From positions 1 through 63,770 of IMG/VR virus record IMGVR_UViG_3300044731_000783: a stretch of DNA of 63,770 nt. One strand, written 5' to 3'. This document shows positions 22,466-54,315 of the stretch, piece by piece (within the stretch, counting starts at the first letter, position 1; every line of letters starts with the position of its first letter). Origin of the DNA: a virus. The notes beneath the pieces were generated by a model. It did not search any database. It had not been told where the DNA came from and saw only the letters and a list, made by a program, of their open reading frames with translations. A program made the translations under genes and the position numbers.

Positions 22466-23505
22466 TGGCCTGTATTACATCAACATTTTGCGTATCAACT
22501 AATGTCTACCCCTACGATGGTGAGTATGATGTTGCCGGTACCTATAATTCCGAAGATTATTTTACAGGTGGTTCTTATTTTATATATTTTTCCACAATAG
22601 AAAATAGATGGTGTTTATCGGATTCGTTAGGAGGTACTTGTTATCAGTTTGGTCCAACCGGATTATTTTCAAGTTGTCCGGATTTAGATGAATCTTTTTT
22701 CTCTTCTGGAGCTTGTCCAACAACAACCACAACCACAACCTCACCTTGTGATGTTTTTGATTTTGAGGCGATTTTTGATTGTTTGGTCCCAACAACCACA
22801 ACCACAACTTCAACATCAACAACCACAACAACCACAACAATACCACCTTTTAATCCTTGTTCTGGTGTTTCAGTTAATGTTTCAATAAAAACATACACAA
22901 CAACAACCACAACTATTTTACCAACAACAACAACGACCACAACTATTAATCGTCCTTGTAATTTTGACGGTAATGCGCAATTCAATATATTTGATGAATA
23001 TATGAGATGTGGTAATAGTAAGAAATTCAGAGATTGTTTAACTGGTATTGACTATTACTCATCAGATGTAGTTTTATCACCAGTTGGTGTTTCGCCAACA
23101 CAAGGATATGTTTATAAAGCAGATGTTAATGGTGTTTCAGTTTGTATTACATTTGTTGGGCTTGTTGAAACTACAAGTGGTGTTGATAATATCAATTTAA
23201 TAGAAGAAATTGGTCTGGAAAATGAAGGCGGTTGTCTTGAATGTTTGCCGGATCCACCACCAACAACTACCACAACATCTACCTCAACAACAACCACAAC
23301 AACAATACCACCGTGTATTTTATCCGAATATTTGATAACAAATAATAATTTCTTACCAGCTGAGTTTAGATATACTGATTGTGATGGTAATACAATTAAC
23401 GACTTGTTACCTGGTAATTATGGAAATAAAACGGTTTGTTCACCAACAATTCCAATTGTTTTTGGTAATGCAACAATACAAGATACTGGATTTATTTGTA
23501 ATTAA
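22465..23505 (+). CDS. Poly-threonine linker adhesin/tail-fiber protein
   Basis: A 346-residue beta-rich protein made of small cysteine-containing modules. The modules are joined by four Thr tracts (Thr7; Thr6-Ser-Thr-Ser-Thr7; two Thr6-7 tracts; Thr5-Ser-Thr-Ser-Thr6). Such mucin-like linkers are extended and are good candidates for O-glycosylation. Cysteines occur in each module. With the neighbouring tail genes it suggests a surface-exposed virion adhesin. It is on the opposite strand to the related tail genes and ends at a hairpin shared with ruvC. Confidence 0.75.
   Translation: MACITSTFCVSTNVYPYDGEYDVAGTYNSEDYFTGGSYFIYFSTIENRWCLSDSLGGTCYQFGPTGLFSSCPDLDESFFSSGACPTTTTTTTSPCDVFDFEAIFDCLVPTTTTTTSTSTTTTTTTIPPFNPCSGVSVNVSIKTYTTTTTTILPTTTTTTTINRPCNFDGNAQFNIFDEYMRCGNSKKFRDCLTGIDYYSSDVVLSPVGVSPTQGYVYKADVNGVSVCITFVGLVETTSGVDNINLIEEIGLENEGGCLECLPDPPPTTTTTSTSTTTTTTIPPCILSEYLITNNNFLPAEFRYTDCDGNTINDLLPGNYGNKTVCSPTIPIVFGNATIQDTGFICN
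22720..23304 (+). repeat. ACN-repeat (poly-Thr) tracts in the adhesin gene
   Basis: Thr-coding tracts at 22720-22740, 22792-22839, about 22895-22948, and 23263-23304 are built from ACA/ACC codons. Similar tracts occur in the opposite orientation at about 24760-24835, 26090-26140 and 27775-27815 in minus-strand genes, so they form inverted repeats. Confidence 0.8.
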
Positions 23506-31255: not shown

Positions 31256-34200
31256 TTAAATTAAATACCAATTTCCGTTTCTCACCATAATGGTAAGAGA
31301 CATATAGTTTATATTCATATCAACATATGAATTTCCGTCAATCAAACCCGATGCCGGTGTTAATCTTATTCTAAAAAACCCGGAAGTTCCGGCTTCGTCT
31401 TTTATGACTAAATAATACCCGTCTCTTGACGTTGTTGTTGGTAATGTTAAATCAACATTTGATGATCCACTAACACCCCAATATACTTTATCCCAAGTTA
31501 AGGTTTGTGAGGATGTTATAGCACTTGTTGAGTAGTTTGCTGATTGAGAAATATCTCTTGTTTTTAAAATACCTGTTGATGTGTCTCTAACCAAGAAATT
31601 GTTATTAGTACTATCTGTTTCTGGCGTATTTTGTAATGCCAAATAATTTACGTGGAATGTACAAGCTGATACCGATACAACATCTTTACCATATGTTGCC
31701 GACATTATGTGATTAACCGTATTTCCACTACCACCTAAAATTGTTCCGAAATTAGAAATTGATGTGTTATTTATACCGCCTAATATTGATGAACCATTAC
31801 CAAATGCCGAATTACATCTACCACCGCCAATAAAATTACAAAGACCTATGGCTCTATTTGAAACTCCCCCAACTACGCTTGAGTGTGCTCCACATGTTGT
31901 ATTGCATTGCCCACCACCAATAAATGTGTAGTCACATCTTGTTGTATTATTTTGACCGTTACCTATAATTGAATAACAACCGGAAGTTGTATTTAATTTC
32001 CCATTGTTTACAGTACTAAAACAATCAACAGCAGTATTCCTATCACCATTATTAATAAATGAATACACACCAGATGTGGTATTACAATTACCATTATTAA
32101 TTGATGATTTAAAACCTAATACTGTATTATAAGTGCCGTTATTTACAGTTGTAAAATTTGTACACAATGCTTTATTAAATGCCCCATTATTAATAGTCGT
32201 CCAAGTAAGGTTTGCTGTATTACAAGTACCGTTATTTACAGTTGAGTAACCACCAGATGCGGTATTATTAAAACCATTACCAATAAACGAATATTGCCCA
32301 GTTGTTGTATTACCACAACCATCTCCAATTATCGAATAACAAGCATTTACCGTATTTCCAGAACCACCAATTATCATTGAGTAATTACAATTTGATTTAT
32401 TTATAGTTCCACTACCAATAAATGAATAATTACCATTTGACGTATTTTGACAACCACCAACAATTACAGAATATGTTTGTTGTGTTTTATTTTGGGTACC
32501 ACCACCAATAGTTGAGCCAAAACCATTTGTTGTGTTTTGATTTCCACCATTAATTGATGAGTAAAAATCTAAAGCGGTATTTGAATCACCTCCAGTAACA
32601 ACTGAAGATGAGTTTGCACTAACGTTAAGTCTACCTCCACCAACAAATGAACCATAGGCTGAACTAGTATTACGTTGCCCCCCACTAATTGTTGAGCTAT
32701 AACCACTTGATGTGTTACATACTCCACCACTTACAGTTACTGAATTATTATTTGTTGTGTTACAAGAACCACCACCAATAACAGAACTATCACCTAACGA
32801 CGTGTTAAGTATACCACCACTAATAACTGAAACATAACCACTTGATTTGTTACAAAGACCTCCACCAATTGTTGCATAATTGGCAGAGGCTGTATTACTA
32901 CCACCACCAGCAACTGTAGATCCACTACCAAAAGACCAATTATTAGTGCCACCACCAATTGTTCCATAAATAAAATTTGTCGTGTTACAATAACCACCAC
33001 TTATTGTTCCATAATCAGAACTATATAAAACACTATTATAATACCCACCCCCAATTACAGCACCACCACAACAATATAAACTATTTGTTAATAATATTTT
33101 ATTTTGAAGTCCTCCATTAATTGTTGAGTAACTTCCAGATGATGTTGTATTAACAATTAATTCAACACCATCATTAAGATTTAAAGAGCCAAAACAAGTA
33201 TTATCAAAAAATAATTTATCGCCATTTTGATAATTAAGACCTTTATTATTTATATATACATTACTTAATGTCCCTATTGGATTAAAATAAAAACTAAATG
33301 TACCATTTGTTCCATAAAGTGAGTCTGTTGATGTTGGCCCAAATGGACCATAATACCCACTAATAGTTGAACCAGTCCAATTGCAACTTGAAAATCCACC
33401 TATAAGTCCAGGTACACCAATTGTGTTTGCCTGACCGGCACCAATTATTGAACCAAACCCAAATGTTCTATTTATACTACCACCACCAATAAACGAATAA
33501 CAACCACAACTGGTATTATCAAGACCACCGGTTACAACAGAATACTTACATTGGACGTGATTAGCACCTCCACCACCGATAAACGATCTACCAGCTACTG
33601 TAGCATTACTATTTCCTTTACCACCAACAATTATAGTGTACGGACTACTTACAAAATTATTTTCTCCACCACCGATGAATGAATATAATCCGCTTGCAGT
33701 ATTGTTATGACCACCACTTACGGTTGATATGTAACCACTTGACGTGTTGCAAAGTCCGCCACCAATTGTTGAAAAATTACCATTTGATGTGTTACGTCGT
33801 CCACCACTTACGGTTGAATCTTGACCACTTGATGTGTTACAAAAACCACCACTTACGGTTGAATAATCACAGCTTGATGTGTTATTTAAACCACCACCTA
33901 TTGTTGAACCTTGACCACTTGTTGTATTACAATATCCACCACTTAATGTTGAGTAGTTTCCACTTGATGTGTTTTGACGACCGCCACCAATAAATGAATA
34001 ACCTTTAGTTGATGTGTTACAAAAACCACCGCTTATTGTTGAATAATCATTGGATACTGTATTATAACTTCCACCACCGATAAAATTACCATAACCTTGT
34101 TCTACAGTATTTGAAAGTCCGCCAACAATTGCAGATCTAGTTGTTGTTAAATCTTTAATAATATTACATTCTCCACCACCAATAAAAGAACCGCTTTGTT

Positions 34201-34564
34201 CTGAAATATTAAAATTCCCACCACCAATAAACGACCCAGGTCCAGAAGTTGTGTTAAAATACCCTCCACCAACAAATGAATAAAATCCACTTGCCGTATT
34301 TCCAGTACCTCCACCAACAAGTGAATAAATACCACTTGCGTCAGCATTAACACCAACTCTTTGTGTTGAGTAATTTCCGGATCCAGTTTCATACAATTGT
34401 GTTGCACCTGTAAAACCAGAAAAAATTGCATCAGATACTTGTTGTATTGTTGCTTTATATGATGATCCTGCCGGATTTTGAGAAGTATCACCAGTTATCA
34501 CAATATGAATTAAATCTTGTAATGTTACTCCGGTTGCTAATGTTCTATCGGTAAGAAATCCCAT
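31256..34564 (-). CDS. YadA-like repeat tail fiber (trimeric autotransporter-type beta roll)
   Basis: An 1102-residue protein in which roughly fifty copies of a 15-residue unit (NTxSGxYSxIGGGxx) fill about residues 75-960. An insertion of about 80 residues lies near 395-475. The pattern resembles head repeats of YadA-type trimeric adhesins, which form left-handed beta rolls. The N-terminus (GFLTDRTLATGVTLQDL) would be the virion attachment part; the C-terminal 130 residues, with no repeats, may bind the receptor. TATTTATAAATA is 11 bases upstream. Confidence 0.85.
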   Translation of the reverse strand: MGFLTDRTLATGVTLQDLIHIVITGDTSQNPAGSSYKATIQQVSDAIFSGFTGATQLYETGSGNYSTQRVGVNADASGIYSLVGGGTGNTASGFYSFVGGGYFNTTSGPGSFIGGGNFNISEQSGSFIGGGECNIIKDLTTTRSAIVGGLSNTVEQGYGNFIGGGSYNTVSNDYSTISGGFCNTSTKGYSFIGGGRQNTSSGNYSTLSGGYCNTTSGQGSTIGGGLNNTSSCDYSTVSGGFCNTSSGQDSTVSGGRRNTSNGNFSTIGGGLCNTSSGYISTVSGGHNNTASGLYSFIGGGENNFVSSPYTIIVGGKGNSNATVAGRSFIGGGGANHVQCKYSVVTGGLDNTSCGCYSFIGGGSINRTFGFGSIIGAGQANTIGVPGLIGGFSSCNWTGSTISGYYGPFGPTSTDSLYGTNGTFSFYFNPIGTLSNVYINNKGLNYQNGDKLFFDNTCFGSLNLNDGVELIVNTTSSGSYSTINGGLQNKILLTNSLYCCGGAVIGGGYYNSVLYSSDYGTISGGYCNTTNFIYGTIGGGTNNWSFGSGSTVAGGGSNTASANYATIGGGLCNKSSGYVSVISGGILNTSLGDSSVIGGGSCNTTNNNSVTVSGGVCNTSSGYSSTISGGQRNTSSAYGSFVGGGRLNVSANSSSVVTGGDSNTALDFYSSINGGNQNTTNGFGSTIGGGTQNKTQQTYSVIVGGCQNTSNGNYSFIGSGTINKSNCNYSMIIGGSGNTVNACYSIIGDGCGNTTTGQYSFIGNGFNNTASGGYSTVNNGTCNTANLTWTTINNGAFNKALCTNFTTVNNGTYNTVLGFKSSINNGNCNTTSGVYSFINNGDRNTAVDCFSTVNNGKLNTTSGCYSIIGNGQNNTTRCDYTFIGGGQCNTTCGAHSSVVGGVSNRAIGLCNFIGGGRCNSAFGNGSSILGGINNTSISNFGTILGGSGNTVNHIMSATYGKDVVSVSACTFHVNYLALQNTPETDSTNNNFLVRDTSTGILKTRDISQSANYSTSAITSSQTLTWDKVYWGVSGSSNVDLTLPTTTSRDGYYLVIKDEAGTSGFFRIRLTPASGLIDGNSYVDMNINYMSLTIMVRNGNWYLI
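31700..34340 (-). repeat. About fifty 45-base in-frame repeats
   Basis: The repeat units of the fiber gene are near-periodic 45-base segments with GGTGGTGG-type cores and AATACC/AACACA units. They are degenerate at the DNA level but keep length, so recombination between units would change fiber length without breaking the frame. Confidence 0.85.
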
Positions 34565-37112: not shown

Positions 37113-40109
37113 TTAATTACATAAAATTGTGAAGTTTATTCCAACATTTATTTCAAATGTATCATCAACACTAATTGGTATACAATTAACATTATAGACC
37201 GTAACAGTATTATTTACCTCATCAATAAAATAAGTATAACCATCATTTTGTAAATTTGTTAAAGAACTATTTAAACCATCAATCCATTGTTGGTTTGTTG
37301 GGTAATTTTGATATCCGCTTGTTATTGTAAATGGTTCAATAATTAATGGTACACCATTATATCTGATATCAACATACCACTCACATACAATGGTATTTAA
37401 AAGGCAATCATTAGTTGTTAAATTATTTATTTCTAAATAATTGTTTAACGCGTTTGACAATATTGTTCCAAAAGAAACATTTGATGGGTTTGAATCCCAG
37501 GGGTATAAAGGACATTCAACAAATTGTACCGGACAATCATAAGCAAATAATTGTGTTGTAAGTTCACAAGGATTACAAGGTACCGGAACAATTCTACAAC
37601 CATATTGTCTTCTCCAAACAAACTTTTGTCTATGAAATATTGAGTTCTCAAGTCTAACGCCTGTGTTCCAAATTGTTGTTGCTGGTACCATTTGTTCTAT
37701 TAAACGAATCCAATAATCTCCCATACCATTTACATAATCAATTAATGGTTGGTATGTAAAATTATCATTTGGTATTCCGGCAATTTCTCTAGATTCTAGA
37801 TATTTCCAGTATATCGATTGTAGTGTTGGATAACCACCGGTTTTTCCGTCTGTTATAAATTGTCTATTTCTAACATTTATTGTGTTATGCCAAAATGTTT
37901 GTAAAAATTCAAAAAATGTTTTTTCTTTTGGTTTTGGGTTAATTTCAGTCCAATCAATACCACCTCTTTGTGGGTATGGAGTATTTGGATTTGGATTACA
38001 ATAGGTTGGTTCAATATAATTAAGTCCTTCATTTGGTATTGGGTAATTATACTGTCTAGACATTGTCCAGACATCATATGCCAAACCTAAACTTGGGTTT
38101 AACATAATGTCAACATTTTTAACATTTAATACTAAACAATCTTCCGATGTTGGGTAATAAGCGTTAAAATTACCATCAAAACTTGTTCTAAGTCCGGTCT
38201 CATTATCTGTCCAACTTTTTTTATTATCTTGAATTCTCCTTAATTTGAATCCTAAATTCATAAATGGAAAATATCTATATCTATCTAAATATTCTTCACC
38301 ATAATTAAATGGTCTTAATTTGGTTTGGTACGTTGGGTTTGTACCGGTAAACACCGAGGTTGTTAAATCAATTTTTTCCGGCATTCTATGTTGTGGTGTT
38401 GATTCAAACCAACCACCTCCAATTTGGAAAAAATAACTTTCACTTTCAACCGGCATACTAGGACAACCGAATTGATCTAACGGATAGTCAACAGATGTAA
38501 CACTAATATCTTTAGTCACACTAGATAATGTAACTCCAGTATATTGTACACCCATAATTGAATAAACGTCTGTTTGGTCTAAGACTGGTGTTTGTTGAGT
38601 ATAGGTACCCCCTGAAATTTTAGCATATTGGGTATCAAAATCATTTACATTAATTTTTTGATCCGCTAAATACACATATTCATTAAAATCAACCAAAAAA
38701 TCCGGAGCACCAATAAATCTTAAAAGTGTTTCAATAGATCTTCTTGTTCCTTTTGATTTAAAAAGATACGCGGAATTCATTATCAAATTTCTATAGAATT
38801 GATAATTTAACTCATCTGGTGTTTTACCAACTGGTAACCCACTAAATTGACTTTTTTCTGAAACAAAAACAGAATCCAAAAAGTCTTTATCGCTAATTGG
38901 TGAAATATTTATTTTCCAACCTAATGTTTGTGCTAAATTTTTTAAAAGTTGTGATGGTATATCATCTTTAATATTGTAATTAACAGAATTTATATTTGCT
39001 AACGCACCTATAAATTTTTTAGTTTCGTCAAAACTTCTACCATATATCTGTACAACTTTTTCAAATTTTCTATCAATAGTATCAAATTCTTTTAGTGCTG
39101 ATGTTGTATAAAATCTTGATATTAAATTTGTTGTGTAGTTATCTAAACTTACGGCAAAACTATTTAACGATGTTATATAATTTTCAAATTGATTTGATTT
39201 TATATCTAAATTCCAACTACCATCTAACGGAAATCTTAATGTTTTATTTGTAATTTTAAAAGTTCCATCATCATTTTCAACAGGTACTTTAAAATATGAA
39301 GTGTATATTGGTTGTATTTGTCTATTTAGTAAAAAATTTTCAACAGTATCAAAATTTTCGTTAAAAACTTTATTTACATAATAATCTGTTGGTCTTATTA
39401 AAAAATTTGATTGACTAAAGGTTTGATTTGGGAAAGGTTCACCTTCTAAATAAATCTTAAACGTAGTATCAGTCGGTTTTATCGGTACAATATCATTTAT
39501 TGGGTATTGTTCTTTGTTTATGAATAATGAATATTTTTGATAATTCTTTTTCATATTTCTCAATTCTGATGTTGTAACCTCATATGAAGCAGTATTTCTA
39601 TCTGCGTTAATTGAGAAGTCGATTGAAAATGGATTTTTAATTGTGTCTAAATAGATTTCCAACGTAGTTTCATTTTCAACTTTATCATATGATATATTTG
39701 TAATAGTATATCCAGTACTAAAATCTGATTTAAGACTACTAATTTGTAAAGCCGCTGGAAAAAAATTTATAATCCTTGTCAATGCGGCAGAAATTCTTAA
39801 TGATAAAGAACCGTATAGTGTGAAATTTGTAACTTCAGATAAATCATAATTTGGGTAGACCTGAAAGTTGTTTGCTAAAATCATTTTAGATTGTTCAACA
39901 CTTTCGATTTTTAAAGTATCTAAAGATATTGGGTCTGAAAATGTACCAATTTCAAAATTTCTATCTTGTTTTTCTGATATACCAGTTGTAAATTCAAAAT
40001 TTCCTTGGGTAAAACCACCACCGTCAACAAGTTGGAACCCAACTAAATTGTCAGAAAATGTGTTTTGTCCCGATGCCTGTGGTGGACAAGTAAATTTGTT
40101 TATTGCCAT
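37113..40109 (-). CDS. Baseplate/tail structural protein with P2 gpI-like region
   Basis: A 998-residue protein. The region near residues 415-470 (DELNYQFYRNLI ... YLFKSKGTRRSIETLLRFIGAPDF) resembles the tail protein I family, which links baseplate to fibers. The N-terminal 400 residues are mostly beta-rich, and the C-terminal end carries several cysteines (CNPCELTTQL ... CPVQFVECPL). The size suggests a fused baseplate wedge component. It is three bases from the SprB-repeat gene and shares one base with the upstream gene. Confidence 0.75.
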   Translation of the reverse strand: MAINKFTCPPQASGQNTFSDNLVGFQLVDGGGFTQGNFEFTTGISEKQDRNFEIGTFSDPISLDTLKIESVEQSKMILANNFQVYPNYDLSEVTNFTLYGSLSLRISAALTRIINFFPAALQISSLKSDFSTGYTITNISYDKVENETTLEIYLDTIKNPFSIDFSINADRNTASYEVTTSELRNMKKNYQKYSLFINKEQYPINDIVPIKPTDTTFKIYLEGEPFPNQTFSQSNFLIRPTDYYVNKVFNENFDTVENFLLNRQIQPIYTSYFKVPVENDDGTFKITNKTLRFPLDGSWNLDIKSNQFENYITSLNSFAVSLDNYTTNLISRFYTTSALKEFDTIDRKFEKVVQIYGRSFDETKKFIGALANINSVNYNIKDDIPSQLLKNLAQTLGWKINISPISDKDFLDSVFVSEKSQFSGLPVGKTPDELNYQFYRNLIMNSAYLFKSKGTRRSIETLLRFIGAPDFLVDFNEYVYLADQKINVNDFDTQYAKISGGTYTQQTPVLDQTDVYSIMGVQYTGVTLSSVTKDISVTSVDYPLDQFGCPSMPVESESYFFQIGGGWFESTPQHRMPEKIDLTTSVFTGTNPTYQTKLRPFNYGEEYLDRYRYFPFMNLGFKLRRIQDNKKSWTDNETGLRTSFDGNFNAYYPTSEDCLVLNVKNVDIMLNPSLGLAYDVWTMSRQYNYPIPNEGLNYIEPTYCNPNPNTPYPQRGGIDWTEINPKPKEKTFFEFLQTFWHNTINVRNRQFITDGKTGGYPTLQSIYWKYLESREIAGIPNDNFTYQPLIDYVNGMGDYWIRLIEQMVPATTIWNTGVRLENSIFHRQKFVWRRQYGCRIVPVPCNPCELTTQLFAYDCPVQFVECPLYPWDSNPSNVSFGTILSNALNNYLEINNLTTNDCLLNTIVCEWYVDIRYNGVPLIIEPFTITSGYQNYPTNQQWIDGLNSSLTNLQNDGYTYFIDEVNNTVTVYNVNCIPISVDDTFEINVGINFTILCN

Positions 40110-42233: not shown

Positions 42234-43045
42234 TATGGGTTAATATATTCGTACCAAGCAATTGGGTTTATTTCGTCACCGACTCTATTATTTGTCACAG
42301 TTGAGATTACCTCATATGTCTTGGTTGGATAATCCAGTTTTACTTTATAATAGAAATAATCAGAACTATCAAATGTAAAATAATTACCAGAAAGTGTTGA
42401 TTGTGGTCTATTCATCATTCTCACAAAAACACCAAGACGAGCATCAAAAAATTTCGCACTCATATAGAATTCATCTAAATTTATATAATCTCTACTTTTT
42501 AACCAATAAATAAAAAATCCTTCTTTATCTCCAATATAATCTAACCCCATTTTTGGTTTTCTAATTTGAACATTTGTTAAATATGGTGATATTGTTACGG
42601 TCTCAAAAAATCCTTGTTGCACCGGTAAAATTATTGTAAAATAATTTTTTTGACTAACCTCATCTCTTGTGTCATAAAAATCAATCTTAAAAAAAGATTT
42701 TGTGAATGGTTTAGAGTATGAATATATTTCTTGTTTGGTAAATCCTTCGTATTGATAACTATTAATCCAGGCGGCCGGATTATTTATTGTTTGTCCACTA
42801 TCAAAAAAATTAAATTCATAAAATATTTTTGTAACCAAATCATTTGTATTAGCCGACAAATAGGTATTATGTGCAAATCTTGATAATTCAAAATCATTAG
42901 GTGAACCAATTAAATCAATTAAAACTTGATCCTGGTATTCGTCAATTGCTTGATCACGTTCTGTAAAATCCCATTTTATTTCAATTGGAATATCAATCTG
43001 TTTATCAACAGTTGGTAATAATATTTTATACTTACTCACACTCAT
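42233..43045 (-). CDS. Structural protein
   Basis: A 270-residue beta-rich protein (KYKILLPTVDKQIDIPIEIKW near the N-terminus). Its C-terminus is next to the PKD-like gene, and its first bases overlap the 585-residue gene by 14 bases. No domain is recognised; the operon context indicates a tail or baseplate component. Confidence 0.65.
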   Translation of the reverse strand: MSVSKYKILLPTVDKQIDIPIEIKWDFTERDQAIDEYQDQVLIDLIGSPNDFELSRFAHNTYLSANTNDLVTKIFYEFNFFDSGQTINNPAAWINSYQYEGFTKQEIYSYSKPFTKSFFKIDFYDTRDEVSQKNYFTIILPVQQGFFETVTISPYLTNVQIRKPKMGLDYIGDKEGFFIYWLKSRDYINLDEFYMSAKFFDARLGVFVRMMNRPQSTLSGNYFTFDSSDYFYYKVKLDYPTKTYEVISTVTNNRVGDEINPIAWYEYINP

Positions 43046-44789
43046 CTATAGTTGGGTCTGCGATTTCTGTTATGTTTTGAACACCGGTACCTTCAGAAAA
43101 TACTCTAAATATTGTATTTCTAAAGGGATAATGTGAACCGTTGGTAAATGGATAATCCACACCTAAACCTTCATTATCAATAAATCCATATGGATAAATA
43201 TCTCTCCATCTAAATCCACCTGAAAGGTTTGAATAGAACGAGTAATTGGGAATATCAGTAACCGTGTTTGGGTCACCTTCTTCAACATAATCCGAATAAA
43301 CACTCAATGTTAATGGTGTTAATGGAAAATAATAATAACCAAATTTGTTATTTAATGGTGAATTATCAATTGTTGTAAAATAGTTTTGGTTAAAAGTAAA
43401 TTTATGTATTTTTTTTGACACAATTCTTTCTTTTTGTTCATAGTCATTCCATTCACAAAAGTCCCCATCAATAGTATCACCAGAAACTAAATCTTGAGTA
43501 TAAAAACAAGGAAATAAACCATTTGGGTTATTTGGAAAATATGTTGAGGATGGTATTGTAGTATTAGATAATGTATTATTTATATCCCACCAAGGATTTG
43601 GTACTTGACCATCTAAATAAACATTAAAATAGTAACCTTCTTTTAATTTATTTGTCCAACCATAATAACCTTTCCAAATTGTTGTAAAAAATAATTCAGT
43701 TATTGGTCTTTTTTGATTATCAAGTAATGGACTTATATCTATATCAACATTAAATGATAATGTATAATTTTGACTTCCCTCTAATGTTGATGTTCTTGGG
43801 CAAGACGGTGGTGTCAAGATTGTTAAAGGAGTTCCACCAGACAATGTTTTTTCATATTGTGTTTTTAAATTAAAAATATTTTGTTCAAAACCACTATTAA
43901 CTAAAACTGCGTTTTCAGGATTGGTTAAAATTTTATGTCTTCTAATATAATATTTTGAGGTTGTTTCACCGGTGTTTGAAGTATCTAACATTCTTCTAAA
44001 TGTCCCTATTACACCAGTACTAAATATACCGCCGATAAAACCTATGTTGTCAATATTAAAAATATACTCATCACTACCAGACCCACTATCACCAAGTGAT
44101 GTTACCTGGAAAAAGTTATTTCCATTATAACTTAATGATAATTTAACATATTCACCAACATTTAGTCCGTGTTTCATAGGACATTTAAATGATACATAAT
44201 CACCAGTAATTTCTTTTATAAAGAACGGTATACCATCACTAGCAGTCCAATACCAAGTTATTATATATTCCGGATCAGTAGTATATAAAACTTTATTATA
44301 ATCATTTTCAAATGGATAGCTAACATAGTGGTTCCAATTGTATGTCGATGCACTTTGATTAACAAATAATTGATGATTTGGTAATCCGGATGTGTAACCA
44401 ATTTTATTATTGTCTGTTCTTATAAAGTCAAATTCACTATACTGTGGAAACCCAGACCAAGCTGGAGTTGTATTTGGGTAACATAAAACATTTTGTACGT
44501 TTTCAACTAAATTTGAATAATATAAATAATTGTAATATGGTTCATAGGTTGTTATTCCGGAATAAGCATTTTTAAAAATGTAAGCAAATTTTGTTGTTGG
44601 TCTAAATATAGAAGATCTTTGTCTTTCTTCGTCAAAAACTTGTTCTAAACTAATATCAATTGTTCTATCATACTCAACTTGTTCATGTGAAGTTTGTTTT
44701 AATATGATTTTTTCAGAACTATCAATATCACTAGCCCCTTGGAATCTTTTATTTCCTAATATTATTTTATTTGAGTCGTCAATTCCCAT
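43032..44789 (-). CDS. Structural protein
   Basis: A 585-residue protein, mostly beta-rich with many Tyr and Asn residues (YEPYYNYLYYSNL). The N-terminal segment (GNKRFQGASDIDSSEKI) is of the type seen in virion proteins. It overlaps the next gene by 14 bases and shares its first base with the end of the 1981-residue gene. No named domain is found. It is likely part of the same baseplate assembly as its large neighbour. Confidence 0.65.
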   Translation of the reverse strand: MGIDDSNKIILGNKRFQGASDIDSSEKIILKQTSHEQVEYDRTIDISLEQVFDEERQRSSIFRPTTKFAYIFKNAYSGITTYEPYYNYLYYSNLVENVQNVLCYPNTTPAWSGFPQYSEFDFIRTDNNKIGYTSGLPNHQLFVNQSASTYNWNHYVSYPFENDYNKVLYTTDPEYIITWYWTASDGIPFFIKEITGDYVSFKCPMKHGLNVGEYVKLSLSYNGNNFFQVTSLGDSGSGSDEYIFNIDNIGFIGGIFSTGVIGTFRRMLDTSNTGETTSKYYIRRHKILTNPENAVLVNSGFEQNIFNLKTQYEKTLSGGTPLTILTPPSCPRTSTLEGSQNYTLSFNVDIDISPLLDNQKRPITELFFTTIWKGYYGWTNKLKEGYYFNVYLDGQVPNPWWDINNTLSNTTIPSSTYFPNNPNGLFPCFYTQDLVSGDTIDGDFCEWNDYEQKERIVSKKIHKFTFNQNYFTTIDNSPLNNKFGYYYFPLTPLTLSVYSDYVEEGDPNTVTDIPNYSFYSNLSGGFRWRDIYPYGFIDNEGLGVDYPFTNGSHYPFRNTIFRVFSEGTGVQNITEIADPTIDECE

Positions 44790-47700
44790 TATTGTTTTGC
44801 TGTATCAACATATAATTTTATGAATTTATCAATTGCTGTTTTCCCATTGTTAAGTCCAAAATAAAAGAAAAATGGTGCACCAACTAAAATTGCTTTACCA
44901 TTCGGTATTCCAGTTACAACACCTGTAGTTCCTGTTAATGGTTGGTTATTATTATCAAAATTTGTTATAAAACCAAAATTAGCTGTGTTTGTTAAATAAT
45001 ATTCGTTAGTATCTTCAAAGTCTAAATTTTGATAATAGTTTGAATAGAACCCGTTACTGGTTTGATTTTGATCTGCTGTTGTTAACCAATTATTATTTTC
45101 AGTTCCAAATATGTTTGGTGTTGGTCCAGTTATTTGCCATTTATAGTGTGGTACTTCTTGGTCTGATGAGTACCCAAAATAACTTACAACATCAAGACCA
45201 CAAGATGATGGATAAGTTTCAATACCAGGTGTTAATCTTCTTCTATATTGATATTCTTCTGTTGATGATGAAAAGAAAACACCAAATACCGGTCTTTGTT
45301 CTGATGTTGAGTCTTCTCCAATAAACAAAAAATTATTAGGATAATTTTCTTCAATATAAGGATTTATCCTCCATTCTGAATTTATTGATAAAGCTTGAGC
45401 AAAATCACCATCAATCCTATCACCTTTTCGAGTACTATTAAAAAATTGTATTATTGACCTACCTTCTGCCGCACCACCTGTTGCATTAACTGCAAATGGT
45501 AACATTTGGTCTCTAACTGAAGCATTTAATAATCTAGAAATAAAACCCATTTGTATTAAATCTGAATTATCAGAATATGATGTTGCTCTAACTTGGTCAA
45601 CAATATATCCATTAAATTGGTCACTATTACAAATTTGACTTATGAACTTATCTCTAGGTCCTAAATCCATAACAGTTGTTGGAAATTGTATTCTTTGTTC
45701 GTTGTAACCATACCCAGGATAAACATTAACTAAATAAGGTGGTAATGATGTGTTTATTGGTGGTGAATCAACACCGATAAAATTATTTCCATCCCAAGGT
45801 GATGAACGATAATAAAAACCTTTTGTTATTTCATTAAAAATTACAGTATCTTCACAATAATTATAAATTGGTTCATCCGGTTGTTGTAAGGTAAATGTTG
45901 TTGATTTATTAAATGAAAACATATAAAGAACACCATTTATCCAGTTATTTTGAAAAGTTTGTGAAAACACGCCTCTACATGCTGCAAACGTTAATCTAAA
46001 TCTTGTTATCCATTCTAATAATAATCTAGAATCTTTTTGATATTCTGGTATTAAATATATTTTTTTAAAGAATAATCCGGTTAATGGGTCTGGGTTTTCA
46101 ACGTAATTTAATAAACAATAACATCCTTGTTTTATTCTATCTGGTTTAACATCACAATTTGGGTTAACTCCTATATTTGTACCTGAACCAGTATAACATT
46201 GTAATGAAACCATTTGGTCACAATTAAGTGTTGAAGTTAAACTTTGAACAAATTGTGTTTCATCATAAACAGTTTGTCCAGCGTTTTGGTCTGGAGCAAA
46301 AGTTATTGTTGGGTTATTTGTTGTTCCTTCTGTATAATATGTAAAATTATCGTTTTGATGTAGACCGTAACTTGTTTGACCATAATTTTCTTGTGTTTTT
46401 GTTGATGTTGGGATTCTATCGCTTCTCATTACCAAATATTGTGTCGGTAATAAATTAGGGTCTGGATAATTTATTGGTGTTAAAGAATGTTTATGGTATG
46501 CTGTTGAGTACACTACATATTTTCTTAATGAAGATCCTGGTTCAATGTATAGATTAGTGTCATTTTGATTACCCCATAAATCATAAAAATCATATGGTGT
46601 TGAGTCTGTATTAGATGCTGTAAAAGAACCCCCAGCAAAATAGTAATTTGTTGTTGAGTCCACAATTGATGGTGATGGTGATATTATGGGTAAAAGTTTA
46701 TTTCTTTGTGAAGCACCATTTACACTATAATATGTACCAGAACTTAATGTTGATACAGTTGGAAATGATGGCCAAGGAACATATGTATTAACAGTTGATA
46801 CTGAATTATCATCTGTACATAAATAATAATATGGTAAATTAGATGTAAATGCGGTATATTCATTTCTAGTAATACCATTTTGATCAACGTAACTTGGACT
46901 TATTTTAAAATTATACGCTGGAAAATATAAATCTTGTGAAATATTTGTTGGTGTGTTATGACTTTTTGGTTTGTTTCCACCTGAATAACCTTGTATTGGT
47001 ACATTTAAATAATAATCACCCTCAACAATAACAGAACCAAATGATGTTTGTCCGAATAATTTTGATAAATCATATTTGTTTTTATATTTACCAGAATGTG
47101 GGTCAACACCTCTAGTTAATATTAAAATTTCATAACCAGAATAGTCATTTGATTTTGTTATAACATCTGGTATTTGTCCATACAAATAATTTGTGTTGTT
47201 GTATGGGTCACAAGAATTTTCAAATATAAATCTAGCGTCGTGATTTAAATATTTTTTAGGGAAATAGTTGTTTGTTGATGGTGAATAATTTGAATTTAAA
47301 ATAAATTGTGAGTATGTAAATCCTGTTATTACTTGGAAATATTCGATATCTGTAACAAATTTTAAATATGTTTCATTACCAGTATTTCCTGTTAATAAAT
47401 AAGAAGTTGGTGTCGCGTTTGTATTATTATTTGTTGGGTCAGCATAAACAACTTGTATAACCGTTGATGCAGATGTAGTTCCTGTTAAAGCATTATTACC
47501 AAATTGATTAACTGTGTTTGCAGTTATTGAATTATAGAATGTGGCTCCGGTTAAATTTTGATTACACAAAGATAGACTTGAATCTTGGAATGAGAATAAA
47601 TTACCTACACCTATTTGAGCTAAAGTACCTGGTTTTGCTAAAACAACTAATGGTTGGTCTAAATGACCTAGTGAACCAAAATTACTTGGAGTATTGAATA

Positions 47701-50700
47701 CTGTTTTTATTTGATTAACCCCATCAAAATATTTTTGTCTATAATTAAATTCATTTAGTTTCTGTGTATAAGATTCCGTTATTGGATAGGCCAACCATCT
47801 TTGTGAATCTGTTGGGTTATTAAATGTATTTCTAACTCTATCAGCCGCAAATAAAAATGGTTGTGGAGCGTGTAGTAATTTTTTATCTGGAATTCCTTGT
47901 TGGTCATTACCGGTATCTAATGACTCACTACCACTTATTAATCTTTGATAACCTAAACTTGCGGCAACAGCAACACCAGTATCAATATCTTGTTTAAAAA
48001 GACTATAAGATAATGATTTATATTGTTCAAATACGTTTGGTGTTATAGGACAATAATATGGTCCTTCGGATGCTAATAAATTACCATTATTGCTTGGTTG
48101 TTCTAAATTTGGGTGTGTCACATTAAAAGTGGCAATCAAATTCATTGGTGCTAAAAATGATGTTGACGTTGTTGCTGATGTTGGTATTCCTGCTGGTGGA
48201 GTAGCCCCATCAATATTTTGTTCTGAAGCAATTTGATTTGCGGCACCTTCTATTGTACTTGAATCAAAGTCATCTGACATTTCAGCATTTCCACAATCAC
48301 AATCACAAGTAGAACAATCTGGATAAGATAACATTGGTAAACCAAATCTTGGGAAACCCGTAACTTTAATTGCAAATAATATTGACACAGCTAATAATAA
48401 TAATGAAAATCCTAATTTTAATATTGCTGATATTACACTAGCTATTGTTGTTGCAACTAATCTTATTGACTCTAAAAGTGCTCCAATATCAAATACTGGT
48501 CCTGTTGGTGAAATTGTTGTAACAGAAAATCCAGTATTTATTGTTTCATAACCAGATTGTATTGATTCATACACTGCAATTCCAGCATCTATTGATTCTC
48601 TTAATGCTAAATAAATTAATACAAATTTTAAAATTGGCCAAATTAAGGCTATTAAATGGGCGATAAATAAAATTAATAAAAATGGTATTGTTAATATTGT
48701 AATAAACAAATTAAAAATAAAAAATATCCAATCAAAATTTCTAACAATATCATTTACTGGAAAAGTATTTACTGTTGATTTACAAGTTCGATTATCAATT
48801 TCTTTAATACCTAAATGTTTTGCTCTACCAATACCGTTTTTATATCTATCAAGAAACATTGCGGTAGTGTAAACTTTGTTATAATTAAATTCATAAAAAG
48901 TATCTTCACAATTAATTGCTGATTGTTCATCAACATAATCATCCCAATCAAGACTAAAGCTATATGACCTTAATAAGTCAAAATAGTCCTGTTGATAGTA
49001 TTTATATATAACTTCTGATTGTTGATTTGGGTCAACAAAATTTGGTATTATTTCAACTTGATCACCAGAATTTATAGGTATAACTTGTGTATCACCATAA
49101 TATGGTAATGAATTTATATTTACAGAATAAGAACTTATATTTATTGCCTCATCAAAAACTAAACCACCACCAGATGGGAATGTAATTGTAGTACTTATTG
49201 GACCACCCGGTATAGAAAAAAGTGTGTTTGGTGCACCATTAATACCAGTATAAAAAATTGATGAGGGTAATGTTGGGTCTGTTGGTACTATTGTTACAAT
49301 AATATAATTGTTCGCACTTAAACCTGTAATACCATTTAAAGGGTTTCCTAAATATGGTTGTGGTAGTAGTGGAAATAAAGTTGGTGAAATTGCAACTTGG
49401 AATGAATTTACGTTTGTTAATACTGGGTTTACTAAATCACCATTTGATGGTATTATAAAATCATCAGTTAATACTAATGGTTGTACTGTAAAATTTACCA
49501 ATGGTACTGGTGTTGTTGCAGTTTTTAATGGGTCGTTAGTATAACTCGATGAGTTCCACCCATGTTCTTTTACGTTTGGGACAAAAAAGTTTGCTCTCTG
49601 TATCTCATTTTGTAAACCACCCTCATTATTCCATTTGAATTTGAAGCGGTATTTTGCTTTTGTTGGGATACCAATTTTTGGGTCGTCTGAAATTGCCTGT
49701 TCACCAAATTCATTAGTGTAAATATAGTCCAAATTCATCGGTAAATTAACCAAGTATGAACCATCACCATCAATTACCTTACCATCTTGTTCTAGTCTAT
49801 ATTCCTCTAGTGTTGGTCTACCTAAATCATCAATATTTATTGTTTGTCTAATAGACAATATTTGTCCAGGACCCGCAACTAATTCACATAAATTTCCAGT
49901 ATTATTTTTTGGTTTACAACTAACTCTAATTGCATCATCATCATTTGTTGAAATTACTGAACCCATAAAAACAGCTTTCGGTTCTATACTAATGTTAGCT
50001 TCGCTTGTTAAATCAAAATCAACCCTAGTAATTCCCAATTGACAAATTTCCGGTTCACCCCATAATGGTGCAATATCAATAATTTTATTTAATGTTTTAA
50101 TTTGTGGTAATTCGTTTAGATTAGTCGATGATTTAAATTTTGAACCATTAACTTGTGTTTCATTGGCAACGCCAGCTTGGATTAAGTCTTGTGGTGTTAA
50201 TGAAAAACAACCCATATCAGATAAATCAATATCTAAAAATATTGTTTGGGTTCCAAGTGGAACACCAAAAATCATATAATCACCACTATCATTTGTTCTT
50301 GTTGTATATTTATAATACTTGTCATATACCTCAATATAACTTTGGTCTAATAAAACTTCTTTTCTTGTCGGGAATGTACCGGTAGCAATGTGACCATCAT
50401 ATGATTGTTCTTTTGGTAATAAATTATATCTATAACCTTCCTCATCAACATCAGCAATTGATGTGTAAGGATATATGTCTGTAATTACTGGATTTGTTGA
50501 GTCTTCATCTGACAATGGTATAAAAACAGAAATTCTCGCATTTGGTAATCCAAAACCACCATTTACAAATACTCTACCTACAACAACGCCATAGTCGGAA
50601 CATCGTCTATTATAAACATCACTTTGTAAAATTTTTAGTGATAATATGTTGATACTTTCAAAATCTTGTTCAAGATTAACTTTAATTGATTTATCAACAC

Positions 50701-50734
50701 CGACCTGGGTTCTTATTCTATGTGATTTTGGCAT
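44789..50734 (-). CDS. Giant virion structural protein with internal membrane helices
   Basis: A 1981-residue protein, the largest in the window. The N-terminal about 650 residues have a beta-rich, carboxypeptidase-regulatory-like flavour (GGFGLPNARISVFIPL). A very hydrophobic region follows near residues 663-708 (WIFFIFNLFITILTIPF, LLILFIAHLIALIWP), another near 766-788, and a Cys cluster (CSTCDCDCG) near 805-815. Over 1100 residues of beta-rich sequence come after. TATTTATG lies 16 bases upstream and AAAGGA nearer the ATG. Position implies a tail or baseplate protein; the helices suggest membrane insertion. Confidence 0.75.
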   Translation of the reverse strand: MPKSHRIRTQVGVDKSIKVNLEQDFESINILSLKILQSDVYNRRCSDYGVVVGRVFVNGGFGLPNARISVFIPLSDEDSTNPVITDIYPYTSIADVDEEGYRYNLLPKEQSYDGHIATGTFPTRKEVLLDQSYIEVYDKYYKYTTRTNDSGDYMIFGVPLGTQTIFLDIDLSDMGCFSLTPQDLIQAGVANETQVNGSKFKSSTNLNELPQIKTLNKIIDIAPLWGEPEICQLGITRVDFDLTSEANISIEPKAVFMGSVISTNDDDAIRVSCKPKNNTGNLCELVAGPGQILSIRQTINIDDLGRPTLEEYRLEQDGKVIDGDGSYLVNLPMNLDYIYTNEFGEQAISDDPKIGIPTKAKYRFKFKWNNEGGLQNEIQRANFFVPNVKEHGWNSSSYTNDPLKTATTPVPLVNFTVQPLVLTDDFIIPSNGDLVNPVLTNVNSFQVAISPTLFPLLPQPYLGNPLNGITGLSANNYIIVTIVPTDPTLPSSIFYTGINGAPNTLFSIPGGPISTTITFPSGGGLVFDEAINISSYSVNINSLPYYGDTQVIPINSGDQVEIIPNFVDPNQQSEVIYKYYQQDYFDLLRSYSFSLDWDDYVDEQSAINCEDTFYEFNYNKVYTTAMFLDRYKNGIGRAKHLGIKEIDNRTCKSTVNTFPVNDIVRNFDWIFFIFNLFITILTIPFLLILFIAHLIALIWPILKFVLIYLALRESIDAGIAVYESIQSGYETINTGFSVTTISPTGPVFDIGALLESIRLVATTIASVISAILKLGFSLLLLAVSILFAIKVTGFPRFGLPMLSYPDCSTCDCDCGNAEMSDDFDSSTIEGAANQIASEQNIDGATPPAGIPTSATTSTSFLAPMNLIATFNVTHPNLEQPSNNGNLLASEGPYYCPITPNVFEQYKSLSYSLFKQDIDTGVAVAASLGYQRLISGSESLDTGNDQQGIPDKKLLHAPQPFLFAADRVRNTFNNPTDSQRWLAYPITESYTQKLNEFNYRQKYFDGVNQIKTVFNTPSNFGSLGHLDQPLVVLAKPGTLAQIGVGNLFSFQDSSLSLCNQNLTGATFYNSITANTVNQFGNNALTGTTSASTVIQVVYADPTNNNTNATPTSYLLTGNTGNETYLKFVTDIEYFQVITGFTYSQFILNSNYSPSTNNYFPKKYLNHDARFIFENSCDPYNNTNYLYGQIPDVITKSNDYSGYEILILTRGVDPHSGKYKNKYDLSKLFGQTSFGSVIVEGDYYLNVPIQGYSGGNKPKSHNTPTNISQDLYFPAYNFKISPSYVDQNGITRNEYTAFTSNLPYYYLCTDDNSVSTVNTYVPWPSFPTVSTLSSGTYYSVNGASQRNKLLPIISPSPSIVDSTTNYYFAGGSFTASNTDSTPYDFYDLWGNQNDTNLYIEPGSSLRKYVVYSTAYHKHSLTPINYPDPNLLPTQYLVMRSDRIPTSTKTQENYGQTSYGLHQNDNFTYYTEGTTNNPTITFAPDQNAGQTVYDETQFVQSLTSTLNCDQMVSLQCYTGSGTNIGVNPNCDVKPDRIKQGCYCLLNYVENPDPLTGLFFKKIYLIPEYQKDSRLLLEWITRFRLTFAACRGVFSQTFQNNWINGVLYMFSFNKSTTFTLQQPDEPIYNYCEDTVIFNEITKGFYYRSSPWDGNNFIGVDSPPINTSLPPYLVNVYPGYGYNEQRIQFPTTVMDLGPRDKFISQICNSDQFNGYIVDQVRATSYSDNSDLIQMGFISRLLNASVRDQMLPFAVNATGGAAEGRSIIQFFNSTRKGDRIDGDFAQALSINSEWRINPYIEENYPNNFLFIGEDSTSEQRPVFGVFFSSSTEEYQYRRRLTPGIETYPSSCGLDVVSYFGYSSDQEVPHYKWQITGPTPNIFGTENNNWLTTADQNQTSNGFYSNYYQNLDFEDTNEYYLTNTANFGFITNFDNNNQPLTGTTGVVTGIPNGKAILVGAPFFFYFGLNNGKTAIDKFIKLYVDTAKQ

Positions 50735-50817: not shown

Positions 50818-51210
50818 TTAACACATAACAGACATAACTTTATAGTCTTGTTTGTATTGATTCACATAACAATTATACGTTGCTTTAATTCTATCAGCAT
50901 CAGTTGATGTAGTGTTATTTGTTTTAAGTTCACATAATGAACTAACACATGACAGAATATTTTCCCTATTTGGTTCACCTCTCATTGTTTTAGAACAATA
51001 TCCATTAGGGTCAACACTTTTTAATTCTTTATTTGTAAGACCAACACTGTATTCACCCCAAGCGGTACTAAATTTTTCACCAACAGTTAAACATAAACCA
51101 TATTGATTTTTTTTAGCAAAAGCCTCTTGACTTGTTTGAGTAGTTTCTTTAAGAATTTTTTTAACAATTCTTTTTAAATCAGATTCAGTAAGTTTTATAA
51201 CTTTTTTCAT
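50818..51210 (-). CDS. Small Cys-rich protein with prohead-protease-type N-terminus
   Basis: A 130-residue protein starting MKKVIKLTESDLKRI. The N-terminal amphipathic helix ends LKE, fitting T4 prohead protease cleavage (after residue 22). The rest has six cysteines (at LCLTV, YCSK, SCVSS, LCEL, NCYV and VMC), suggesting a disulfide-stabilised domain. I infer that it is a head-packaged internal protein. TATTTATAA lies ten bases upstream. It is separate from the tail genes in type, but between them in position. Confidence 0.65.
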   Translation of the reverse strand: MKKVIKLTESDLKRIVKKILKETTQTSQEAFAKKNQYGLCLTVGEKFSTAWGEYSVGLTNKELKSVDPNGYCSKTMRGEPNRENILSCVSSLCELKTNNTTSTDADRIKATYNCYVNQYKQDYKVMSVMC

Positions 51211-51237: not shown

Positions 51238-53076
51238 TTAAGAAAAATTAACACCCTTAAAGTTTAGAACTCTTACATTAATATCTTTGTTTGGATATCT
51301 AACTTGGTATGTTTGAGTTGGTTCAGCAAAAATTGTGTCAGCAATTAATTCAATCTGTTTTGTTTCCGCATCAACATATCTTTGTGATGTTTGTGATGAT
51401 GAATATTGTCCACCAACTTTGTTAAAGACCTGGATATCGGAAATACTAATTACACCATCTAAAGCCTGGATTTGTTTTCTAATCTCAGAGATATAAACAT
51501 TTTCACCCATTTGTCTATTTGATGGTGAAAAATATTTTGTAACAATATCAACAACCTGTGTTACTAGTGCTCCTTGATTTTGGCTAGCATCTAAAACAAC
51601 ATCAACATTTAACCCTAAATCAATTACATTTGCACTTTCAACCGAAATATAGTCATTTATCATTCTGTAATTTGACAAATAATTTGCAATATTTTGTTTT
51701 AATGTGTTTGATGTTATTTCAGTTAATTTACCTTCATTATCATATGAAAGTAATTTAATCTTAATTTTATTATTTTCTTCTGTAATTGTAACTTTTGCTG
51801 GAGCACCAAATTGTGATGGCATTGTTCTAATGATTGACTCATAATCATTTACTGTTACGGCTCTATTTTGGGCGGCAAAGTTAAATGTAACCATTTGTCT
51901 TACCTCTTCAGTTGATGGGTTATTTGCACCACCAATTGCCGCAGTTAGATTATTACATCTTAAAGAATTAATTACCGTTCTATTAACACTATCAGATGGT
52001 CCGTTTACTGCAAACGATACGGTACCAATTTGATTGATAACACCAATACCTAAATTACTTGTTTGTCCGCCACCAACTCTGTATTGTACAAACATTGTTG
52101 TGTTAGGTTTTAATGCACTTCCAAGTGCTAAGTTATTTGAATATTTTGATAAATTAAATCCTAAACCATCTCTTGTAAATTCTCTTAATTGTTCTTCGGC
52201 TGATGTGTTACCACCACCAAATGTCATTTTAAAGAATCCTTCTGGTGTATATTCTGTTATAAATTTATCACTTGTTAATATATATTTTCCAACCTTAATG
52301 CCGGGATTATCAGAAACTTTTGTTGGGTCTTCAACAAATACCCTATCTTCAATTAATGCTTTTACTTCATACCAACGATTATTTAAACCTAAAAATTCTT
52401 GTGGTTGTGGGACTGTGGTATATTGTGTACCTTCTTTTATTAAGACACTAGTAACACCTAGTACATTTTTTTCTGGTAAAAATAATTCAAAAAATGGTTT
52501 TACATCATTTGCTGTTATTACTCTTTTGAAAACCTTTGTTGATCCATTAACAACAACCTCTCTTTTTGTTATTGTATAGTTTATTAATTTACCGGTTGAA
52601 TCAAAATTTGGTGTTTTTAATCTATTTGGGAATCCTTCAGCGTTTATTGCTGATGAAAAATCAATATCATAAACAGTTTCAAATGGTTGTCCTCCACCAT
52701 TAACTTGTGCTCCTCTACGAAGTATACCACAATATCTTAAATCTTCTTTATCACCAAAAGCCGGAACTGTAATTGAGAAATCAACTAAAGCAACTGATGG
52801 TCTTTGTCCTGGTATTTTTAAACCGTACGTTCTTGCTATATCATATACCGATGACTTTTGTTGTGCATATTGTAAAACAGTCTCTTGGATACTTCTATCT
52901 ATATGAAAATGTAGGTTGTCACTAACTGCAGCATTTAAATCCATTAAAACAGAGAAAATACCTGCATCGTTAAAGTTTTGTACTAGTGTTGGGTAATATT
53001 GCCTTGTAAAATTTATTAATTCAGTTCTTAACCCCTGAAAATCCCTTACCGTATACGATATTTTTTTATCTGCCAT
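51238..53076 (-). CDS. 6: Baseplate wedge protein gp6-like
   Basis: A 612-residue protein. Its N-terminus (TVRDFQGLRTELINF ... SVLMDLNAAVSDNLHFHID) matches gp6/gpJ-type baseplate wedge proteins, which form the ring that links wedges around the hub. T4 gp6 is about 660 residues. The C-terminal domain (GVISISDIQVFNKVGG) is also of the family. It lies 12 bases from the gp25-like gene, as in many tailed phages where wedge genes are adjacent. Confidence 0.9.
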   Translation of the reverse strand: MADKKISYTVRDFQGLRTELINFTRQYYPTLVQNFNDAGIFSVLMDLNAAVSDNLHFHIDRSIQETVLQYAQQKSSVYDIARTYGLKIPGQRPSVALVDFSITVPAFGDKEDLRYCGILRRGAQVNGGGQPFETVYDIDFSSAINAEGFPNRLKTPNFDSTGKLINYTITKREVVVNGSTKVFKRVITANDVKPFFELFLPEKNVLGVTSVLIKEGTQYTTVPQPQEFLGLNNRWYEVKALIEDRVFVEDPTKVSDNPGIKVGKYILTSDKFITEYTPEGFFKMTFGGGNTSAEEQLREFTRDGLGFNLSKYSNNLALGSALKPNTTMFVQYRVGGGQTSNLGIGVINQIGTVSFAVNGPSDSVNRTVINSLRCNNLTAAIGGANNPSTEEVRQMVTFNFAAQNRAVTVNDYESIIRTMPSQFGAPAKVTITEENNKIKIKLLSYDNEGKLTEITSNTLKQNIANYLSNYRMINDYISVESANVIDLGLNVDVVLDASQNQGALVTQVVDIVTKYFSPSNRQMGENVYISEIRKQIQALDGVISISDIQVFNKVGGQYSSSQTSQRYVDAETKQIELIADTIFAEPTQTYQVRYPNKDINVRVLNFKGVNFS

Positions 53077-53088
53077 CTTTAAAATTTA

Positions 53089-53550
53089 TTATATATTTAA
53101 TATTACAAAATCACTAGATTCAAAAGCAGAATTTGTAATTCTATAATCAATTCTAACTTTTGCGGTATGTTCTTTTTCAGCTAAACCCGGAACTCTATAC
53201 TCTCTAGTACCATCTGGTGTTATATATGTCGCACCAGGATCTGTATAACTCAAACTAGCGTCTTTAATTTCTATATTAGTGATTAAAATTCCGGGTAAGT
53301 AATTTGCAACACTGTCTCTAATTTCGGATTCAATCTCACTAAAAGTTGGTCCATCAAGTGGTTCAAATAAATACTCGTATAATCTTGTGCCAAAATCTGG
53401 TAAAAAATATCTACTACCTTTTCTTGTTAATAATAAATGAACTAAACTACTTTTTACTTCCTCATTACTACTATTTGTGGTAAACAAATATCTACCATCA
53501 TTAGAATCGTAAAATGGGAAATTTATACCATATGTAAATCCGTTTGCCAT
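53089..53550 (-). CDS. 25: Baseplate wedge protein gp25-like
   Basis: A 153-residue protein of the GPW/gp25 family. LLLTRKGSRYFLPDFGTRLYEYLFEPL (here split: LTRKGSRYFLPDFG, then TRLYEYLFEP) contains the conserved PDFGTRL core. It initiates sheath assembly by forming part of the baseplate inner ring. T4 gp25 is 132 residues, so the length is normal. It is adjacent to the gp6-like gene. TATTTATTT lies four bases upstream. Confidence 0.92.
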   Translation of the reverse strand: MANGFTYGINFPFYDSNDGRYLFTTNSSNEEVKSSLVHLLLTRKGSRYFLPDFGTRLYEYLFEPLDGPTFSEIESEIRDSVANYLPGILITNIEIKDASLSYTDPGATYITPDGTREYRVPGLAEKEHTAKVRIDYRITNSAFESSDFVILNI

Positions 53551-53589: not shown

Positions 53590-54315
53590 TTACATTAAGT
53601 TACTATATTTTTCGTAAAAAATTTTTGGCATTTCTAAATGATTATAAGTTTTTGACGGTATTCTCAATGAAACTTTATTTTGCTCCATAGTTTTTATGTT
53701 TTTTTGATAACTAGGTATGCCACTCCAGTTTTCCCATCTAGAAATCATTTTTGTATTTGATGGTAATTTATTATAAGCTTTTGGTGTTGATGGATCAATT
53801 AAACCAATAAAATCGTAATCACCATTAAGTTGTGACCAAGTATTTATACCACCCCTAGAGAATCCACTAACCGATTTTATTCTAAAATTTTTAATACCAT
53901 TGTTTTTTAAAACATTTTTTAATGTTTCTAATGAATTTTCATAATTACTATATATCACATTTTTATTTCCAAAATAACCTTTAGCCTGATTTTTCATAAA
54001 CTTTGCACCATATTGTGTGCTTGGCATACCACCCCAAATTAAAGTAAAATCTTTTGACTTTGGGTTTTTTATGTCAACAATATATGAATTACTTTTTATT
54101 GTTGGTTGTGTTACTTTTTCATTTTCTGTTTTTTTGTTTTGGTTTGTATTACTTTCAGTCTCTTTTGATTTTATTACTTTATTAATTTTATCTTCAATTT
54201 TATCAACATTAATTTCTTTATTTTTTAATTTGTCTTTATTAACACCTAAAATTTTAGCAATTAGTGATAGAATAAAATCTTTTAATTCTGATTCGGTTAG
54301 TAAAACTTTTTTCAT
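53590..54315 (-). CDS. Putative packaged alpha/beta hydrolase
   Basis: A 241-residue protein. The N-terminal sequence (VLLTESELKDFILSL) is like that of the 50818-51210 product, with a possible L-T-E cleavage site after residue 8. A Lys/Glu/Asn-rich linker (about residues 30-75) is followed by an alpha/beta hydrolase core: nucleophile Ser153 in SGFSRGG, acid likely Asp174 (GLIDPS), and His226 (YNHLEMP), in the S-D-H order. It could be a lipase or esterase injected with the genome. TATTTATCA lies three bases before the start. Confidence 0.65.
   Translation of the reverse strand: MKKVLLTESELKDFILSLIAKILGVNKDKLKNKEINVDKIEDKINKVIKSKETESNTNQNKKTENEKVTQPTIKSNSYIVDIKNPKSKDFTLIWGGMPSTQYGAKFMKNQAKGYFGNKNVIYSNYENSLETLKNVLKNNGIKNFRIKSVSGFSRGGINTWSQLNGDYDFIGLIDPSTPKAYNKLPSNTKMISRWENWSGIPSYQKNIKTMEQNKVSLRIPSKTYNHLEMPKIFYEKYSNLM

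Follow-up and report, generated by a model that had tools for sequence, protein, structure and literature searches.

An uncultured virus of the IMG/VR collection, record IMGVR_UViG_3300044731_000783, encodes an uncharacterised protein of 1981 residues (P0001) beside the genes for its baseplate wedge. The protein was studied in the stretch formed by positions 1 to 63,770 of that record (63,770 nucleotides; hereafter the window). It carries two strongly hydrophobic stretches, predicted to be helices, at a position that is fixed in a superfamily spread over hundreds of uncultured tailed phages, most of them large. These helices could form a hairpin that stays shielded within the virion's baseplate until contraction and then enters the host membrane, a tentative proposal to which we give slightly less than an even chance.

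The predicted hydrophobic helices of the 1981-residue protein

The open reading frame (ORF) occupies exactly positions 44789-50734 on the minus strand as one open frame, and it has full-length relatives. The same 1981-residue frame had been listed in the earlier note on this DNA, which did not give its strand; a plus-strand reading of the interval was rejected because stop codons run throughout it and no long ORF is present. All features of the window described below lie on the minus strand unless stated otherwise.

Hydropathy was scored as the Kyte-Doolittle mean over 19 residues, with a threshold of at least 1.6. Only residues 663-713 (maximum 2.82) and 750-797 (maximum 2.51) reach it, and the remaining windows of the protein peak at 1.31. 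The hydrophobic segments placed at 663-708 and 766-788 in the earlier note are therefore real, if somewhat short. One 19-residue peak would by itself prove little: shuffles of the same composition have a mean peak of 1.86 and can reach 2.93. The best 40-residue window, starting at residue 670, has a mean of 2.44, which was matched by none of 5000 composition shuffles. Over the family the median 40-residue value is 2.05. A value of 1.5 was reached by none of 997 unrelated ORFs (non-redundant, 300 residues or longer) taken from about 300 related loci after BLAST sorting of family members from other proteins. The hydrophobic stretches are well beyond chance. On our own simplified scale and scan, which is not a trained predictor, approximate insertion energies are -4.2 for residues 676-698 and -3.3 for 771-793; the segments 752-770 and 699-717 come out as marginal, with values above zero.

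The first helix (residues 669-713; positions 48596-48730) is delimited by hydropathy, shuffles, alignment and AlphaFold, and the second, which passes from hydrophobic to amphipathic (residues 750-793; 48356-48487), by hydropathy, alignment and AlphaFold. Among 112 aligned homologues of the window's clade, columns 669-702 of helix 1 (about 34 columns) are practically free of charge; the conserved positions in this helix are N675, N/S/T679, P684, H693 and W699-P700, with K/R at 703. Columns 753-793 of helix 2 show a polar or basic stripe spaced i, i+4, i+7 (755 E, 758 R, 762 R, 766 Q, 769 S/K, 773 K/R, 777 S), with columns 752-758 occupied in only about one third of the sequences. Judged from this pattern, helix 1 looks like a membrane helix and helix 2 like an amphipathic partner.

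All full-length close relatives in the alignment share both stretches and a cysteine motif that follows them. The cysteine cluster pointed out in the earlier note is indeed there, as CSTCDCDC at residues 807-814 (48293-48316), and its pattern, C-x2-C-x-C-x-C, recurs in 101 of the 106 window-clade relatives that cover the site. The exact motif is not found in other clades, including that of the distant relative L139. Members of the L139 group nevertheless tend to be rich in cysteine at this place: 76% have at least three in the 60 residues that come next to the hydrophobic stretch on its C-terminal side, and the mean over that span is 4.1, where the remainder of these proteins would predict about 1.2. 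Metal binding is the natural guess for C807, C810, C812 and C814, and the conserved motif makes it a likely, if putative, property.

The hydrophobic segment always lies directly C-terminal of a conserved block, KHLGIKEI in the window protein, which belongs to the conserved core block ...YNKVYTTAMFLDRYK..KHLGIKEIDN... (residues 590-660; 48755-48967). A hydropathy window of at least 1.6 falls between residues 380 and 900 in 234 of 234 family sequences of at least 760 residues; this limit was chosen with two shorter members, L138 and L140, already known, and the figure is to be read alongside three members that have no such segment (discussed below).

Structure prediction gives a similar picture. 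For the homologue L139, an AlphaFold model of residues 1-1040 (101 sequences; predicted local distance difference test, pLDDT, 87.7; predicted template modelling score, pTM, 0.86) combines a body rich in beta structure with two helices, one of 45 residues at 466-510 (block pLDDT about 95) and another at 521-536. In the model of residues 580-1779 of the window protein, helices are predicted at 669-737 and 750-790, with block pLDDT of about 63-87 over both. Outside the hairpin the models are mainly beta, which bears out the description 'otherwise beta-rich' in the earlier note.

The superfamily and its baseplate gene neighbourhood

Relatives of the protein are encoded on at least 592 IMG/VR contigs, a count gathered around chosen queries and no census. 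Apart from two near-identical fragments, the best 80 matches share 42-69% identity, and most are full-length. A profile search of prokaryote genomes added the distant relatives L138, L139 and L140 in contigs of metagenome-assembled genomes (MAGs), and searches from two of these three led to further clades, on contigs of up to 413 kb. The window protein has the features by which the superfamily is recognised, a conserved N-terminal domain (GDYM.FG.P region) together with the C-terminal core motifs NG.LY and FYFGL.

Profile and sequence searches with the window protein and its relatives gave no match to the superfamily in Pfam, NCBIfam, PHROG, PDB or INPHARED, and tblastn against 50,697 phage records found no relative of the window protein or of its L139 homologue. 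The sole named relative, annotated as 'uncharacterized protein', was found by structure comparison: A0A8S5LA66 of Myoviridae sp. ctPuP5 (UniProt, BFVD model) belongs to the same family, with a template modelling score (TM-score) of 0.87 and 55% identity to L139 over about 1000 residues. Weak matches of residues 995-1100 to a Shiga toxin A chain (phmmer, E 0.006) were rejected as chance, as they disappeared with a profile of 26 relatives.

The N-terminal domain (residues 1-400; 49535-50734) is defined by conservation, by the L139 model and by fold matches. Its counterpart in L139 is modelled as an Ig-like, CnaB or carboxypeptidase-regulatory-like sandwich followed by the start of a second, transthyretin-like one. 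These two sandwiches of the body were the only matches when the L139 model was compared with the PDB (the Ig-like one at about 45-250; Z up to 6.5), and they represent a widespread fold that carries little functional information; Pfam CarboxypepD_reg stayed below its cut-off against this domain. Whole-protein Foldseek comparison with the PDB returned single Ig-like sandwiches with low TM-scores, and no PDB match was found for the fold as a whole. Beyond the cysteine motif, the window's clade differs from L139 by an insertion of about 740 residues (residues ~820-1560; 46055-48277), mostly beta and absent from L138 as well. It is followed by the C-terminal core (residues 1561-1981; 44792-46054) with the superfamily motifs FQNNWINGVLY and FYFGLNNGKTAIDKF.

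The gene is part of a block read from one strand in the order gp25, gp6, 1981-residue gene. Baseplate wedge gp25 lies at 53089-53550, and the next conserved gene upstream of the protein, baseplate wedge subunit gp6 (baseplate J-like), at 51238-53076. Among relatives with at least 2.6 kb of upstream sequence, 254 of 257 loci carry gp6 upstream and on the gene's own strand; grouped by the nearest of four reference proteins, the counts are 120/121 (window protein), 14/15 (L138), 120/120 (L139) and 0/1 (L140). A tail sheath match was present in six of nine long relatives tested. On this gene order a baseplate role is well supported. The suggestion of the earlier note, a tail or baseplate protein with membrane helices, is thus supported in part: its baseplate role by the gene order and the constancy of gp6, and the membrane type of its helices by hydrophobicity, conservation and predicted helical structure.

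Downstream, the window's clade keeps an order of ORFs of 585, 270, 390, 302 and 998 residues, the first being the conserved next gene (43032-44789) and the last lying at 37113-40109. In the phage records with the nearest gp6 (Flavobacterium phage immuto, Microcystis phage Mel-JY01 and LR756508), the 1981-residue gene has no relative beside gp6 and no tblastn match. It is the 998-residue ORF, and not the 1981-residue gene, that is related to the ORF of 1265-1400 residues downstream of gp6 in these three phages; the 1981-residue gene is therefore an addition to the cluster and not a replacement.

This bears on the comparison with the T4-type baseplate wedge (gp25, gp6, gp7), with which the protein shares its operon position beside gp25 and gp6. 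No sequence or profile match to gp7/gpI families was found in Pfam, PHROG, NCBIfam or PDB. The PDB matches listed for the L139 and window-protein models include no gp7/gpI structure, although a shared fold may exist all the same. The 998-residue ORF is the better positional candidate for gp7/gpI, and a guess at such a role for it follows from motif and position. Its homologues in the records behind L241 and L267 lie in open frames of about 2700-2760 residues, so its family, likewise, has been enlarged by big insertions.

A Bacteroidota host is only suggested, the grounds being that gp6 distantly matches Flavobacterium phages and that one relative was met in a Bacteroidota MAG. One such MAG contains two phage-like contigs, L140, whose member is without the hydrophobic segment, and L311, with a different member that has it. 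Moraphages and other large aquatic phages of Bacteroidota resemble the present phages in being contractile-tailed, large and aquatic and in having gp25, and the authors who described them recognised no tape measure (PMC12619734); this is a likeness of traits and not a lineage assignment.

A proposed membrane hairpin and its alternatives

For most phages with a contractile tail, the passage of DNA from the tube through the cytoplasmic membrane is poorly understood. Membrane docking or opening for DNA passage is usually ascribed to tape-measure or ejection proteins and their hydrophobic segments, and tape measures are mostly helical and located in the tail tube. The 1981-residue protein was rejected as a tape measure, since its models are mainly beta outside the hairpin and its gene follows gp6 rather than the tube gene. 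It resembles TP901-1-type tape measures as a tail protein with long hydrophobic stretches, for which action at the host membrane is an already known proposal. It differs from them in its beta-rich body, its place in the baseplate gene block and its single hairpin, and no sequence relation was found. The novelty would lie in finding such a segment in a protein of the baseplate, where it forms a fixed module that some natural members do without.

We envisage the following course for a membrane-entering hairpin. In these large contractile-tailed phages the protein would be made beside the gp25-gp6 wedge proteins, and its beta-rich body built into the baseplate. A module between two conserved core blocks, consisting of the very hydrophobic helix, the amphipathic helix and the probable metal-binding cysteines, would in the extended virion be packed away within the baseplate. 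Sheath contraction and baseplate rearrangement would then free the hairpin to enter the host membrane. There helix 1 would face lipid, and helix 2 would turn its basic stripe towards its neighbours or an aqueous lumen. Once inserted, the hairpin might dock the tube at the cytoplasmic membrane or help to open that membrane for DNA passage.

Several observations weigh against this course of events. The conserved polar and basic stripe on helix 2 suits a soluble helical bundle, as do helices of 41-69 residues, which are longer than a bilayer needs. The model of the window protein is of medium confidence only (pLDDT 71, pTM 0.58). Three members, L138 (747 residues), L140 (728 residues) and L223 (753 residues), have no hydrophobic segment, which is therefore not essential to the fold; L223 is truncated by a contig end, yet extends past the point where the segment would be inserted. 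In a tree of the N-terminal domain these three branch close to the midpoint root, where the branches are poorly resolved, and ancestral absence and later loss both fit. Lastly, a pore or membrane role of tail hydrophobic regions is disputed even in a studied case: in the TP901-1 tape measure such regions proved not to be clearly needed for membrane insertion, and deletion work led its authors to suggest that the hydrophobic regions recruit a chaperone rather than insert into the membrane (PMC5099701).

Because helix 2 is amphipathic and both helices are longer than a bilayer span, the main rival is a permanently buried hydrophobic bundle, an oligomerisation core that joins baseplate subunits and never meets a membrane. 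The helix pair of the window protein finds its best structural matches, all generic, among soluble helical hairpins and coiled coils, and the conserved N, H and P positions of helix 1 could be packing contacts. However, 34 charge-free columns with a mean hydropathy near 2.4 would be extreme for soluble helices, and the other large ORFs of related loci come nowhere near such values. Moreover, the segment can be missing while flanking core motifs remain, as in L138 and L223, where the flanking core runs on without it. On balance we regard a purely structural bundle as rather unlikely, though well ahead of the remaining alternatives.

An assembly role ranks second among the rivals and appears improbable. 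The segment would here tether a baseplate precursor to the inner membrane, or recruit a chaperone as suggested for TP901-1 (PMC5099701), and be covered in the finished tail. Speculatively, the small adjacent ORF at 50818-51210 could act as a helper, but no conserved membrane-bound or chaperone-like partner lies beside the gene: its conserved neighbours, gp25 and gp6 among them, are non-hydrophobic. An accessory protein anchored in a membrane of the infected cell, for which hydrophobic segments would be ordinary and which would dispense with the virion location that we infer, is least credible of all, given the fixed position in the baseplate gene block across several deep clades, the very large size and beta-sandwich body, and an N-terminus in which no hydrophobic signal-like stretch was found by Kyte-Doolittle hydropathy.

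The hairpin proposed to insert after contraction also allows a broader, still more tentative conjecture: in many large contractile-tailed phages the hairpin that penetrates the membrane may belong to a baseplate protein instead of the tape measure, so that contraction itself deploys the anchor or pore. In any case, a whole baseplate-linked superfamily from hundreds of uncultured phages, unnamed in standard family libraries, carries a single, positionally fixed hydrophobic hairpin that some natural members do without. This defines a module of about 130 residues for liposome tests and a clear target for tomography, and the superfamily could serve as a marker family for large uncultured phages.

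Other features of the window and related loci

Among the large proteins of the tail clusters examined, strong hydrophobicity appears concentrated in the type of the 1981-residue protein. In the L009 tail module (sheath, tube, T4_baseplate-like and ORFs of 588, 1703 and 2162 residues) no 19-residue Kyte-Doolittle mean exceeds 1.5. One ORF of the tail module in a 224-kb relative (1703 residues; L307, 13997-19108, minus strand) matches OmpA, though only below the threshold.

Two ORFs near gp6 in the window, at 50818-51210 and 53590-54315, share the N-terminal tag MKKV..LTES(D/E)L, followed by residues rich in I, V and K. In related loci a simple pattern search found this tag 28 times, on various ORFs close to gp6; virion targeting or processing could be its function.

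Elsewhere, an ORF of 1102 residues at 31256-34564 consists of repeated units of the type GGG..NT.SG.YS, with a resemblance to YadA-like head repeats, and is probably a fibre. Long threonine runs (TTTTTT), apparently linkers, occur in the ORFs at 24219-26717 and, on the plus strand, at 22465-23505, the latter being one of the few long plus-strand ORFs of the window. On the reverse strand of this last ORF, the threonine runs open a spurious poly-valine ORF at 22644-22985.
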